Source of the DNA: Balneola sp.
Lineage (GTDB): Bacteria; Bacteroidota; Rhodothermia; Balneolales; Balneolaceae
Direction: 5' to 3'
Length of the DNA: 64,000 nucleotides
NCBI GenBank assembly: GCA_002694685.1
Contig: NZMW01000001.1
Location: 124,001 to 188,000 of the forward strand
A program made the translations under genes and the position numbers. The notes beneath the pieces were generated by a model, which searched no databases, was not told the DNA's origin, and saw only the letters and a list, made by a program, of their open reading frames with translations. Positions 3,925 to 61,111 of the stretch are shown piece after piece; the stretch's first letter is position 1; every line of letters begins with the position of its first letter.

Positions 3925-3928
3925 TTTC

Positions 3929-3990
3929 GTTGATTGGTTAATCGTTATTCGGAAATCGATAGATTTGGCAGGAACGATTAACCAATCAAC
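3929..3990. repeat. Perfect 18-bp inverted repeat between convergent genes
   Basis: Left arm 3929-3946 (GTTGATTGGTTAATCGTT) is perfectly complementary to right arm 3973-3990, with a 26-base loop. It lies between the convergent icmF and SRPBCC genes, where it could act as a two-way terminator, although neither side has a clean T-tract. It shares the words 'TTAATCGTTATTCG / GATTAACGAAT' with the hairpin at 35959-36117, suggesting a dispersed repeat family. Confidence 0.75.
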
Positions 3991-4000
3991 GATTAACGAA

Positions 4001-32036: not shown

Positions 32037-33011
32037 CTATTCCATCAATTTAGCCCTTATTTTTTCTTTCGTCTCCTTATTACAAAATGCTGCATCAATG
32101 GCATAATGATTACACTTTAGAAAATGCTCGGCTTGCCAATCAAAATGCTTGTTTAGAGATAAGTACTCTTCAATCAGAGAAACATTTGAAATGGTCCGCC
32201 CATCGGTATTGATGCTCATAGAATTGCCTCTCTTGTAAATGTCGTCAACCTGATGTTGGGCAACTAATTCATAAATCCCGGTTTGCACATTGCTTGTTGG
32301 GCAGACTTCCAGATGGATATCGTTTTCTTTAAGATGATCCATCAGCGAATCATCTTCCAAACTCCTTACACCATGACCAATTCGAGAAGGATAAAAGTTC
32401 TGAAGCACTTCCCGGACACTTTCAGCACCACGGGCTTCGCCGGCATGAGCAGTACAGGGAATGTTTTGCTCATTCGCATATTCAAAAGCCTTAATGTGGT
32501 TGTCGATTGGCAGGGTTTCATCGGCAGCGATATCGAAGCCCACAACCTTAGTTCCTCTAAACTGCTCTACTAACTTTATGGTTTCCATGCTTTGCTCTTC
32601 GGTATAATGGCGAAGTGTACAAAGGATAATTCTAGCTTCAATTCCGGTTTCTTTAATTCCTTTGATGGTGGCTTCATTAACGATAGAAACAACTTCCTCG
32701 GCAGTTAAGTCCTCTTCCAGATGCTGCAGCGGAGCGAAACGAATTTCAGCATAAATCACGTTGTCTTCCTGCAGCTGATGAAAGAGATCAAGCGTAACCA
32801 TTTCCAACTGCTCTTTTGTTTGCATGATGGCGATGGGTTCCTGTGCGCACTTCAGATACTCATCCAGGCTGGAGCAGTTGGCCGGAGCAATGAAGTTCTG
32901 CTGATATTCTTCTCTGGAAATTTCAGGTTTCAACTTTTTTACAATCTCGTAGCTCAGGGAGCAATCAAGGTGGAGATGCAGTTCGATTTTTGGCAGGGAT
33001 GTAAAATTCAT
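32037..33011 (-). CDS. add: Adenosine deaminase
   Basis: 324 residues, amidohydrolase fold. Zinc ligands His12 and His14 lie in 'LPKIELHLHLDCS' (the usual Gly after Asp is Cys here), the catalytic Glu in 'TAHAGEARGAESV', further ligands in 'RIGHGVRSL' and 'SINTDGRTISN'. The 'NTDGRT' form, in place of the 'NTDDP' of animal enzymes, matches a bacterial ADA branch. It converts adenosine or deoxyadenosine to inosine in purine salvage. Other adenosine-like substrates such as aminodeoxyfutalosine cannot be excluded. It is monocistronic and divergent from polA, with a 44-bp palindrome in the gap. Confidence 0.88.
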   Translation of the reverse strand: MNFTSLPKIELHLHLDCSLSYEIVKKLKPEISREEYQQNFIAPANCSSLDEYLKCAQEPIAIMQTKEQLEMVTLDLFHQLQEDNVIYAEIRFAPLQHLEEDLTAEEVVSIVNEATIKGIKETGIEARIILCTLRHYTEEQSMETIKLVEQFRGTKVVGFDIAADETLPIDNHIKAFEYANEQNIPCTAHAGEARGAESVREVLQNFYPSRIGHGVRSLEDDSLMDHLKENDIHLEVCPTSNVQTGIYELVAQHQVDDIYKRGNSMSINTDGRTISNVSLIEEYLSLNKHFDWQAEHFLKCNHYAIDAAFCNKETKEKIRAKLME

Positions 33012-33069
33012 TTAATGGGGTGATATTCTAAGTATCAAAAATAATTTGTTTGGAAATGGCATTCTATTT

Positions 33070-33113
33070 CAACCACCGTAGGGGCAATTCATGAATTGCC
33101 CCTACGGTGGTTG
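33070..33113. repeat. 44-bp perfect palindrome between add and polA
   Basis: Positions 33070-33113 equal their own reverse complement over all 44 bases. The outer part is CAACCACCGTAGGGGCAATT and the centre is CATG-AATT. The 'GTAGGGGCAATTCATGAATT' core is like an intergenic palindrome I recall from many distantly related bacteria, so a REP-type element is more likely than a local operator. It would form a 20-bp cruciform or RNA hairpin. Confidence 0.9.
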
Positions 33114-33198
33114 ATGATTGTGTAATCAAAATTCGTAATTAGACCCAAAAAAAATTAGTTTCCGAGTTCAGTATTCAAGTCCAAAATAAACAGATTCA

Positions 33199-35952
33199 AT
33201 GTCTAAAAAACTTCTCTTTTTACTGGACGGAATGGCGCTGGCCTACCGTGCTCACTTTGCATTTATCAATAGCCGATTAAAAAATTCAGAAGGCATTCCA
33301 ACCGGACCTGTTCTTGGTTTTGCCAATACGCTTGAGAAAATGCTGGATGAAGAAAAGCCGACCCATATAGCCGTTGCATGGGATACTAAGGAGCCTACCT
33401 TTCGCCACGAAGAGGATAAAGAATATAAGGCAAACCGACCGCCCCAACCTGAAGAACTGACTATCGGGATTCCCCTAATTAAAGAAATGGTGAAAGCATG
33501 GGGAATTAAGAATATTGAGCAAGATGGCTATGAAGCAGATGACATTATTGGAACCATTGCCAACGGAGCCAATGCTGATGATGTAGATGTGATGATGGTC
33601 ACGCCCGATAAGGATTTTATGCAGCTTGTGCACGATCATGTTCGAATGATGAAGCCCGATAACAATAATGGTGGGTTTAATATCATCGATCGGGAAGGAG
33701 TGAAGGATTACTTTGGGGTATATCCAGAGCAGGTGATCGACGTACTTGCTATGATTGGCGATACCTCGGATAACATCCCCGGCGTACCCGGAATTGGAAA
33801 GAAAGGAGCGCCTAAGTTGATTAAGAAATATGGTTCTCTTGAAAAAGCCATTGAAGCAGCTCCTAATATCAGTGGTAAAAGGGCGAGAGAAGGTCTAACT
33901 GAATATGGAGAACAAGCTCTTCATGCCAAATTCATGGTCACTATCAAAACAGATGTACCAAACACGGCTAAATGGCAGGATATGACTTGGGAAGGTCCTG
34001 ATGAAAAAGCATTGGGTCTGTTCTTCAAGCGGATGGAGTTTCGAACACTCACGAAGAAATATTTAGGAGCGGAAGGTCCTGTTGTTTCAAAAGAGGGAGA
34101 TCAGGTGGATTTATTCGGTTCCTTCAAAGAAGAAGCGCCGAAGCAAGAGCTGGACGAAGACAAGGTGAATTATGAACTGGTTCAATCGCTTGATGCGGTG
34201 AAAAACCTGGTAGAGCGTTTCAAAGACCATGAGGCCTTTTGTTTTGATACGGAGACGAATAGTCCCGATCCGGTTTCAGCAAAATTGGTTGGTATTTCTC
34301 TCACAGCTACACCGGGAACCGGTTATTATATTCCGGTGAACGTGGAAGGCGGTTTGGATGAGAAAGAAGTAATTGAAGTTATACGACCACTTTTTGAAAA
34401 TGAAAATTCCACCAAAGTAGCGCATAATTATAAGTTCGATTACCTCATGCTTTCACGGTCCGGAATTGAAATCAAAGGCAAGCCTTTTGATACTATGATT
34501 GCGGCTTACCTCATTGATGCCAATCAGCGTCTGAAAATGGATGAGCTTTCCAAAAGCCTCCTGAATTATAAACCGGTTCCGATTGAAGAACTGATTGGAA
34601 AAGGGAAGAAGCAGATTTCAATGGCAGACTTGAAGCCCGAAGAGGTCTATCTCTATGCCTGCGAGGATTCAGATATCACCCTGCGCCTCTATGAAATTCT
34701 GAATGAGAAGCTCAAGGAAGATGAGCTGGAAGAAATTGCCTACACGGTTGACTACCCGCTGATGGAAGTATTGGCCGATATGGAATTCAAGGGCATAAAG
34801 CTGGATACCGAAATGTTATCTGCTTTTTCTGAGGAATTGGAATCCGATTTGAAAGAGCTGGAAGAACAGATTTATGAGAAGGCTGGAGAGGAGTTTAATA
34901 TTAACTCTCCGCAACAGCTCGGAACTATTTTGTTTGAAAAGATGGATTTGCCTTCCGGAAAGAAAACTAAAACGGGGCAGTACTCTACGGCAGAGTCTGT
35001 GCTAAATAAACTGGCACCAAAGTACGAAATGCCGAGTCTGATTCTGGATTATCGCCAGCTGACCAAGCTAAAATCTACCTATGTAGATGCGCTGCCTGAT
35101 TTGATCAATCCTGATACCGGTCGTGTTCACACCGATTTTAACCAAAGCGTTGCGGCCACGGGACGATTGAGTTCTTCCAATCCCAACCTGCAAAACATCC
35201 CGATTCGAACAACCCGCGGACGGGAAATTCGAAAAGCCTTTATTGCCGAAGATGGATACAAAATCATGTCGGCAGATTACTCACAGGTTGAGCTTCGGGT
35301 GATTGCCCATATCGCCAAAGATGAAGCAATGATGGAAGCCTTTAAAAACAAGGAGGACATTCACTCCAGAACTGCTAAGGAAATTTTTGATCTGGACTCT
35401 CTGGATGAGGTTACTCAAGATCATCGCCGAAAAGCGAAAGAAGTCAACTTCGGAATTCCTTATGGGGTGAGTGCCTATGGATTGGCTTCTCGTTTAGGGA
35501 TTGATAACAACGAAGGAAAGGAGATGATCGACCAATATTTTGAGCGTTTCCCAAATATTCTGAACTACATCAACGATACAAAAGAGTTTGCCCGTGAAAA
35601 TGGATTCGTGAAAACGCTGTTAGGACGCCGGCGATATATTCCTGATATCAAATCAGGGAATTGGAACGTACGGGGCTTTGCAGAGCGAACGGCCATCAAT
35701 ATGCCCATTCAGGGAACCGCTGCTGATATCATCAAGCTTGCGATGATTAATATTCACCACTGGCTGAAGGACAACAACAAGAAAAGCCGAATGCTGCTTC
35801 AGGTACATGATGAGCTGATCTTTGAAATTCATGAAAGTGAAATAGATGAGGTCCCTGCAAAAATCAACGAGCTGATGGAGACGGCCTTTGAGCTGGATGT
35901 TCCATTGGATGTGGATTCCGGAGTGGCAGAGAATTGGTTGGAAGCACATTAG
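33199..35952 (+). CDS. polA: DNA polymerase I
   Basis: 917 residues with all three domains. The 5' nuclease (about 1-290) has 'LFLLDGMALAYRAHFAF' and 'DVLAMIGDTSDNIPGVPGIG'. The 3'-5' exonuclease (about 315-515) keeps its acidic residues ('FDTETNSPDP', 'AHNYKFDYLML', 'YACEDSDITLRLYE'), so proofreading is probably active. The polymerase (about 530-917) shows motif A 'SADYSQVELRVIAHIA', motif B 'RRKAKEVNFGIPYGVSAYGL' with Phe at the sugar-selecting site, and motif C 'LLQVHDELIFE'. It fills gaps and removes RNA primers. It is monocistronic. Confidence 0.97.
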   Translation: MSKKLLFLLDGMALAYRAHFAFINSRLKNSEGIPTGPVLGFANTLEKMLDEEKPTHIAVAWDTKEPTFRHEEDKEYKANRPPQPEELTIGIPLIKEMVKAWGIKNIEQDGYEADDIIGTIANGANADDVDVMMVTPDKDFMQLVHDHVRMMKPDNNNGGFNIIDREGVKDYFGVYPEQVIDVLAMIGDTSDNIPGVPGIGKKGAPKLIKKYGSLEKAIEAAPNISGKRAREGLTEYGEQALHAKFMVTIKTDVPNTAKWQDMTWEGPDEKALGLFFKRMEFRTLTKKYLGAEGPVVSKEGDQVDLFGSFKEEAPKQELDEDKVNYELVQSLDAVKNLVERFKDHEAFCFDTETNSPDPVSAKLVGISLTATPGTGYYIPVNVEGGLDEKEVIEVIRPLFENENSTKVAHNYKFDYLMLSRSGIEIKGKPFDTMIAAYLIDANQRLKMDELSKSLLNYKPVPIEELIGKGKKQISMADLKPEEVYLYACEDSDITLRLYEILNEKLKEDELEEIAYTVDYPLMEVLADMEFKGIKLDTEMLSAFSEELESDLKELEEQIYEKAGEEFNINSPQQLGTILFEKMDLPSGKKTKTGQYSTAESVLNKLAPKYEMPSLILDYRQLTKLKSTYVDALPDLINPDTGRVHTDFNQSVAATGRLSSSNPNLQNIPIRTTRGREIRKAFIAEDGYKIMSADYSQVELRVIAHIAKDEAMMEAFKNKEDIHSRTAKEIFDLDSLDEVTQDHRRKAKEVNFGIPYGVSAYGLASRLGIDNNEGKEMIDQYFERFPNILNYINDTKEFARENGFVKTLLGRRRYIPDIKSGNWNVRGFAERTAINMPIQGTAADIIKLAMINIHHWLKDNNKKSRMLLQVHDELIFEIHESEIDEVPAKINELMETAFELDVPLDVDSGVAENWLEAH

Positions 35953-35958
35953 AGTGAA

Positions 35959-36117
35959 TTCGTTAATTCGTTATTCGTTGATTTGTTGGCTGGATGTTAA
36001 CTCACTCCGATGCTCTGCGTCGGAGTGAAACTTAGTGGATGGAGATTAAAGCATTTCTCAAAAGACTTTTTGGTGATCGAATAGCGATTAACGAATAACG
36101 AATAACGAATTAACGAA
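35959..36117. repeat. Nested inverted repeats between polA and the pentapeptide gene
   Basis: Outer arms of 21 perfect bases (35959-35979 and 36097-36117; core TTCGTTAATTCGTTATTCG) flank an inner 9-bp hairpin (TCACTCCGA at 36002-36010 with TCGGAGTGA at 36020-36028, loop TGCTCTGCG). The right arm also contains a 'AACGAATAACG' direct duplication. The outer arms share words with the 3929-3990 hairpin and the inner hairpin shares its core with 21088-21116. The whole block lies between convergent genes. Confidence 0.7.
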
Positions 36118-61023: not shown

Positions 61024-61058
61024 TATTACTTGAGGATACACATGAATCCATGATTGGC

Positions 61059-61096
61059 TTTTGTTGCAACCAATAATTAAATTCGTTGCAACAAAA
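61059..61096. promoter_or_regulatory. Paired-palindrome operator of the toxin-antitoxin genes
   Basis: Two 12-base arms, TTTTGTTGCAAC (61059-61070) and its exact complement GTTGCAACAAAA (61085-61096), are 14 bases apart. Each contains the self-complementary GTTGCAAC. This double-site layout is typical of autoregulated antitoxin operators. It lies 15 bp upstream of the antitoxin ATG. Confidence 0.7.
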
Positions 61097-61111
61097 AACA
61101 ATAGTAATGTC

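Follow-up and report, generated by a model that had tools for sequence, protein, structure and literature searches.

Repetitive extragenic palindromes (REPs) of the double-foot type, with GT[AG]G at one foot and C[TC]AC at the other, have been described together with transposases of TnpAREP subclass 2.4, whose genes can themselves hold in-frame REPs between the HuH and the Y motifs (Quentin et al. 2018, PMC6006769). The same study links them to group 4 of the REP-associated tyrosine transposases (RAYTs) and finds them abundant in Bacteroidetes and Cyanobacteria. Here, we describe a perfect palindrome of this kind in an intergenic gap of Balneola sp., within a 64,000-nt stretch of DNA (contig NZMW01000001.1, positions 124,001 to 188,000; hereafter the window). 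The gap, 187 bp long, separates two divergent genes that we take to be add and polA, as the first-pass annotation named them. We found that the palindrome combines a dispersed 28-bp core with outer arms that are mostly unlike from site to site. On balance, we think it probable that it is a RAYT-type mobile hairpin REP whose arms stem from REP-templated fold-back synthesis.

The palindrome and the REPs it resembles

The first-pass annotation had rightly reported a perfect, spacer-free palindrome at this place; its length, given there as 44 bp, is in fact 46 bp, with one more pair on each side. The two halves (33069-33091 and 33092-33114, 23 nt each) are 100% complementary, an arrangement expected about 1e-9 times per window by simple arithmetic (64,000 x 4^-23), and of the 14 inverted-repeat pairs with a length of 20 nt or more listed for the window, this is the only one both perfect and free of a spacer. 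Folded as single-stranded DNA, the 46-mer reaches -25.8 kcal/mol against a mean of -5.2 for its shuffled versions (z -12.0; 0 of 200 shuffles as good). A scan of positions 32900-33300 returned no Rfam family at gathering score. Both the sequence and the fold pair GTAG with CTAC, and the 5' GT[AG]G and 3' C[TC]AC close the long stem, as in the double-foot REPs.

The classical GTAG REPs and REPtrons (Nunvar 2010, PMC2817692; Di Nocera 2013, PMC3733652; Corneloup 2021, PMC8266576) share with our palindrome the GTAG, the association with RAYTs and the dispersed intergenic copies; intragenic copies have also been reported for them, and their preserved palindromicity has been noted. In these REPs, however, the hairpin is imperfect and the GTAG stands unpaired as a foot at one of its ends and helps to discriminate the strands, whereas in our palindrome it is paired and both strands read alike. 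The copy number differs as well, since classical REPs usually exceed 100 copies per genome and our core has seven or so. We therefore set aside an assignment to the classical GTAG REPs.

Two further systems are alike in part. The coding palindromes of Nematomorpha mitochondria (PMC6649704) are also perfect inverted repeats with concerted arm evolution, for which template switching was proposed, but they are not presented as a mobile family in the parts of that account drawn on here. The Rickettsia palindromic elements (named in PMC3733652) are palindromic repeats in frame inside genes; they are a different repeat, likened to ours by description and not by sequence.

From its structure and its association with a transposase gene, we are highly confident that the element is a REP. 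Judged by its sequence, it is a member of the published double-foot kind, in-gene copy included, and the mobile-REP part of our findings is in this sense already known. What may go beyond described REP biology are the outer arms, which vary by site and are possibly reversed copies of neighbouring DNA. Such arms, unoccupied alleles and paired substitutions are not described in the parts of the double-foot study used here (PMC6006769), and our case differs from it further in that the gene cognate to the core lies in a congener and not in the same genome. Likewise, we found no description of site-variable outer arms of REPs in those portions of the searched literature that were available to us.

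Dispersal of the core, its transposase and the add-polA gap

In the whole genome of the window (3.95 Mb; G000), the half-core GTAGGGGCAATT gave four forward and four reverse matches, corresponding to four palindromes, and none in a reversed-genome control. To these four exact copies the copy count suggested by the first-pass annotation adds at least three with two changes (GTAGGGGTAATTCATGAATTACCCCTAC), a lower bound with 15 of 37 candidates scored. Among 57 genomes (relatives, with G000 included), the pattern GTAGGGGCN{4,30}GCCCCTAC was present in 15, and Gracilimonas amylolytica LA399 (G002) has ten palindromes matching it, nine of them with the exact core. The core also extends beyond these relatives: a GTAG-palindrome pattern search of 22 RAYT-bearing genomes gave matches in 20, and among the matches listed the focal core itself occurs in four unrelated genomes (G058, G059, G070 and G077). 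The likeness to repeats of unrelated bacteria that the first-pass annotation had pointed out is thus borne out, the exact core being present in genomes reached via Brocadia, Microcystis, Nitrospira and a proteobacterial metagenome-assembled genome. In several genomes, such as G059, G066, G067 and G069, the core of the in-gene copy recurs elsewhere, and others show other cores, again among the matches listed.

Three REP copies lie within 2.1 kb of G000 (C4:157745, 158733 and 159804, or L059:7746, 8734 and 9805), and an apparently matching region holds three copies in G002 (L078) and G009 (L087) and two in G001 (L064). A different GTAG palindrome, GTAGGGACGTATCATGATACGTCCCTAC, occurs twice in G000 (C4:251294 and C10:593858); no RAYT carrying its core was seen among the RAYT loci whose palindromes were read. 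A literature search with the letters GTAGGGGC, a motif returned to below, gave matches that are unrelated by title, among those listed.

Five PF01797 genes first found in G000 (L009-L013, 3.2-3.3 kb each) are without GTAGGGG, TAGGGGC and their complements. When PF01797 was searched in 27 genomes, a match in G002 was found to sit among three of the REP copies of that genome. This RAYT gene (L070:5194-5754, 186 aa) has imperfect palindromes of the focal type, 52 and 42 bp long, one on each side, and holds a perfect 50-bp palindrome in frame, translated as ...NPAVGAIHELPLRLGY... and placed between HuH and Y. Both arrangements are those published for tnpAREP genes of the double-foot type; flanking by the same REP was seen in G002 and not in G000. 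The protein scores above the cut-off for Pfam Y1_Tnp, its best NCBIfam model is REP_Tyr_transpos (74.4 bits against a cut-off of 80, split into two stretches), and a profile built from nine RAYT proteins of this type matched one PDB sequence, TnpArep 4er8. In an AlphaFold model (48 sequences; mean predicted local distance difference test score 84.8), residues 94-106, most of the REP-coded stretch, fall below 50 and are predicted to form a loop between the HUH strand at 81-88 and the helix starting at 111. No literature match was obtained for the peptide VGAIHELP.

Of the 57 genomes, 24 gave RAYTs of this type. For a wider sample, we scanned the best 80 of 481 RAYT loci from named genomes of many phyla and parsed the RAYT open reading frame (ORF) in 69, dropping the 11 without a motif-based ORF. 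An internal 28-mer GTAG palindrome is present in 28 of these 69 ORFs, compared with 4 of 302 control ORFs (150 aa or longer) and none of 1380 codon shuffles; the share is inflated, because the sample is ranked by likeness to a query RAYT whose peptide is itself REP-coded, and by manual count it falls from 18/35 in the first half of the list to 10/34 in the second. The in-gene copies lie between the HUH and the Tyr motif in 29 of 31 cases, and their frames (GTA read as a codon in 20, the next frame used in 11, the TAG-reading frame in none) are distributed as stop avoidance alone predicts. In the 13 loci that have both an in-gene and another palindrome, the cores differ on average at 0.92 of 10 positions, compared with 4.67 after shuffling (none of 2000 shuffles was as low), although two of the 13 disagree at three and five of the 10 positions. 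Three RAYT relatives were also seen on viral contigs.

Before polA, a REP is present in three of the ten genomes of the genus (G000, G002 and G009). The add-polA gap of G001, G004, G005, G006, G007 and G008 holds none, nor does the sequence before polA in G003, where add and polA are on separate contigs, and the best match to the core in each of these seven loci has at least 11 mismatches. The first-pass annotation had reasoned that a copy conserved in all relatives would speak for a regulatory site; with three occupied genomes in ten, we conclude against a conserved regulatory site at this place. A perfect, stable hairpin near two genes could otherwise be taken for an ordinary terminator or regulatory structure of the add-polA gap. 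We hold this to be exceedingly improbable, as seven of the ten genomes lack the hairpin before polA while the block adjacent to polA is kept, the same core lies at unrelated places, no Rfam family attained its gathering score, and divergent genes leave no 3' end to terminate. An intrinsic terminator, that is, a 3'-end hairpin followed by a T run, was rejected in view of the same divergence and of TGATTGTG, which follows the palindrome. The block itself (window 33131-33163, ATTCGTAATTAG...AAAAAAATTAGTTTCC) is found with small changes before polA in all ten genomes, REP present or not, and is perhaps the polA promoter.

In both G000 and G002, 25 nt separate the core from the ATTCGTAATT block before polA (manual count), which makes an old shared insertion likelier than two separate ones. 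The outer arms differ between these two copies (TCAACCACC in G000, AAACTCC in G002), with five of seven inner pairs alike (manual count). Taken together, the copy number, the RAYT association in a congener and the patchy presence in relatives support the mobile REP-type element proposed by the first-pass annotation. The RAYT that it proposed to look for was found in the congener, where the gene is flanked by and contains the same core, although the RAYT of that type in the genome of the window carries a different palindrome. The same annotation had expected recent arrival or active maintenance; the former is doubtful given a diverged copy at the same site in G002 and G009, and the latter agrees with the paired substitutions reported below.

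Outer arms, unoccupied alleles and concerted change

We compared 38 distinct copies with at most three core changes from the genus (G000, G001, G002, G003, G007 and G009, with some sites represented by two species). Outside the core, every one of them carries 2-11 extra palindromic pairs (median 7), and 34 carry at least four; counted outwards from position -1, pairing is found in 38, 38, 37, 35, 28, 32, 23, 16, 13, 9, 6 and 12 of the 38. From one site to another the arm sequences are mostly unlike, and around an unchanged 28-bp core we find arms as different as TTTTATC, TCTTTTC, TGAAAACC, TAAATCCC and others. In another 36 GTAG palindromes from the genus, 35 of which have a different core, the arms range from 0 to at least 12 pairs, the latter in three copies. 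In other bacteria, eight copies of the identical focal core have 0, 0, 0, 0, 1, 1, 1 and 6 arm pairs, and 64 listed GTAGGGGC copies from 16 other genomes (with G060 excluded, as its copies share flanks) have 0 pairs in 42 cases, 1 in 16, 2 in two, 6 in three and 10 in one. Four or more pairs are thus present in 34/38 copies of the genus against 4/64 elsewhere, and the arms track the genus more than the core.

In the mechanism that we consider likeliest, the 28-bp double-foot core (GTAG...CTAC) would be dispersed by a RAYT of TnpAREP subclass 2.4 (RAYT group 4), and its hairpin would let a DNA 3' end pair back on its own strand. The folded-back end would make a reversed copy of roughly 4-12 nt of the adjacent flank and then return to its normal template, and further rounds of template switching could keep the two arms complementary and now and then invert the centre. 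The transposase would insert the core, and the arms would form at or soon after insertion. We consider a fold-back origin of the arms evenly balanced between true and false, and formation in the very act of insertion rather doubtful.

Unoccupied alleles were searched by comparing 84 distinct copies with the collected loci, L247-L326 left out; two were found under the filters, and a third had been missed by a filter. At L355/L369, G002 reads TTTCCACAGGCA-core-TGCCTGTGGAAAGCCTATTTT and G009 (L371) reads TTTCCACAGGCTATTTT; in G009 the left arm is there as ordinary sequence, and core and right arm are missing. For the focal site, the G000 sequence is CATTCTATTTCAACCACC-core-GGTGGTTGATGATTG and that of G001 (L030) is CATTTTACCGGGGTGGATGATATG, where sequence like the right arm is present and core and left arm are absent. 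At L064:7814, G001 reads TTCCACCACC-core-GGTGATTTTTC and G007 reads TTTCCATCACCCTAGGATGCTTTTTC, with the left arm only. L355 is the strongest candidate for an insertion with an arm that was copied from the opposite flank. No direct duplication is seen in the alignment of the occupied L355 site, and the flank repeats are inverted copies and not direct ones; the miniature inverted-repeat transposable element (MITE) that the first-pass annotation had named beside the REP does not apply in its strict sense.

The same alleles bear on a different origin, in which the core would have been inserted into the centre of palindromes that already existed and the arms would be the old target. Some insertion sequences target REP hairpins. 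Such insertions would leave inverted, centred flanks, and other palindromes do occur in intergenic gaps of the genus; the pair L375/L392 against L373, for instance, has an unrelated palindrome. In none of the three unoccupied alleles, however, is the outer palindrome ready-made, and for the RAYTs L217 and L218 it would take two different palindromes, already present at matching positions, to account for the in-gene copies. We rejected this origin on the first of these grounds and judge it very improbable.

Concerted change was followed in 11 orthologous REPs of G002 and G009. Their flanks are identical at 2413 of 2599 positions (92.8%), and of 228 pairs 211 are unchanged, eight are compensated double changes, seven are one-sided and two are other cases. 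Independent change at 7.2% would predict about 0.4 double and about 30 single changes (arithmetic), against the eight and seven observed; without the poorly aligned pair L072/L085, six double and four single changes remain in 206 pairs. Further cases are found at single sites. Between G007 and G001, the copy at L348 differs by a spacer inversion (AAAATCTT/AAGATTTT) plus a paired end change; at L349, the right arm of G007 follows its own left arm and G001 and G005 share another right arm; and the G002 and G009 copies L357/L362 show a paired substitution and a paired arm-length difference. Paired changes and a spacer inversion are the marks expected of template switching in a hairpin, although selection for the hairpin can imitate paired substitutions.

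G001 and G007, whose aligned blocks average 94.7% identity with flanks of single sites at 97-99%, were also compared outside the REP family. In 600 kb of each genome (both counted), 15 long perfect palindromes were found: 13 have a similar length in the other genome, one is unmapped, and one differs, the other genome having unrelated sequence there. Among 14 indels between the two, a single one outside the REP family carries a flank copied in inverted form. This is a 32-nt insertion in G001 relative to G007, within C1:1570000-1969999, which is fold-back-like and contains an inverted copy of the adjoining CTGACTCCTGAGTTCTG. At a further site (L118/L124, G007:C1:1395400-1395499), G001 has a REP (L063:5587) and G007 has 98 bp of unrelated, palindrome-like sequence (GGTTCCGACGC...) between flanks that are 97-99% identical, as if intergenic stretches had been swapped.

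The mobile unit might instead be the 42-46-bp palindrome itself, moving with ready-made arms that later diverged under compensation, selected as a DNA or RNA hairpin, in which case the one-armed alleles would be deletions. The paired changes in arms (3 of 74 pairs) as well as in the core (5 of 154) fit this, as do the weak arm consensus at positions -1 to -4, the inner pairs shared by the two add-polA copies and the allele of G007 at L064:7814, which indicates that core and one arm can be lost jointly. However, unlike arms around an unchanged core would require the arms to diverge far faster than the core, arms of 0-2 pairs are seen in 60/64 copies of the same or related cores outside the genus, and palindromes of the genus with other cores also carry arms. 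We thus see a ready-made unit as a somewhat unlikely explanation.

Several observations weigh against the fold-back origin of the arms and the RAYT-driven dispersal that we favour. Unoccupied alleles are few (two among 84 distinct copies, plus the third), and the direction of change at them is unproven, none having been polarised with an outgroup. A one-armed allele may precede an insertion, but deletion can produce it too. Indeed, the G007 allele at L064:7814 is probably a loss, because G000, G002 and G009 are occupied there, and the G001 and G007 alleles at the focal site may be deletions too, because G002 and G009 also carry the REP there. Next to the core, positions -1 to -4 lean to C, C, A and C (36, 26, 26 and 20 of 38), which could reflect an inherited longer element or a target preference. 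Moreover, arms are absent from six of the other 36 GTAG palindromes in the genus, and four of the 64 copies outside the genus have long ones. Lastly, no RAYT with the focal core was found in G000, whose single match of this RAYT type carries another in-frame palindrome, GTAGAATCGCGCCATGGCGTGATTCTAC, of which the search pattern revealed no second copy in that genome. As no such RAYT was found there, the focal copy probably goes back to an old insertion and has outlived its supplier.

Features of the window and meaning for the spread of REPs

Besides the features collected below, the window holds a perfect 21-nt inverted repeat, TTCGTTAATTCGTTATTCGTT, just downstream of polA (35959-35979 and 36097-36117, with 117 nt between the arms), and two imperfect hairpins with short loops (3927-3992 and 61053-61102; arms of 31 and 22 nt). 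In G008, an ORF beginning MYYYVYLLQSKRTKNFYIGYT (L121:1547-1914, on C23), which we take by eye to be GIY-YIG-like, apparently interrupts the start of a putative gene, presumably that of RNase P RNA. Within the focal palindrome, the left outer arm would be the copied one, since the unoccupied allele of G001 is without it, with the direction again unproven.

Table. Palindrome, its parts and the flanking genes in window coordinates
Feature	Position	Strand	Basis
Whole perfect palindrome, 46 bp, arms 23+23, no spacer	33069..33114		Sequence, inverted-repeat search, folding
28-bp REP core GTAGGGGCAATTCATGAATTGCCCCTAC, double-foot REP with 5' GTAG and 3' CTAC	33078..33105		Sequence; type according to the parts of PMC6006769 used here
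Left outer arm TCAACCACC, site-specific	33069..33077	+	Without counterpart in the G001 unoccupied allele
Right outer arm GGTGGTTGA	33106..33114	+	Similar GGTGGATGAT in the G001 and G007 unoccupied alleles
Presumed add gene, left neighbour	32037..33011	-	ORF of 324 aa
Presumed polA gene, right neighbour	33199..35952	+	ORF of 917 aa

How REP sequences spread was still described as remaining to be elucidated in 2021, in the part of that paper considered here (PMC8266576). One conceivable route for the double-foot REPs of this genus, to which we give only limited credence, is one-ended: the transposase would attach the REP hairpin by one of its ends to a single-stranded target, the free 3' end would prime fold-back copying of some 4-12 nt of the flank, and the strand would afterwards resume its own template. 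If this were true, insertions would be signed by an inverted and not a direct duplication of the flank, a new kind of insertion scar, and a recognisable scar of this sort would let the route of REP spread be read from genomes. It would also open the route to tests that combine one given RAYT, one given core and matched occupied and unoccupied sites. Likewise, these REPs offer a naturally occurring case, in bacteria, of short palindromes whose perfection is maintained by apparent template switching.
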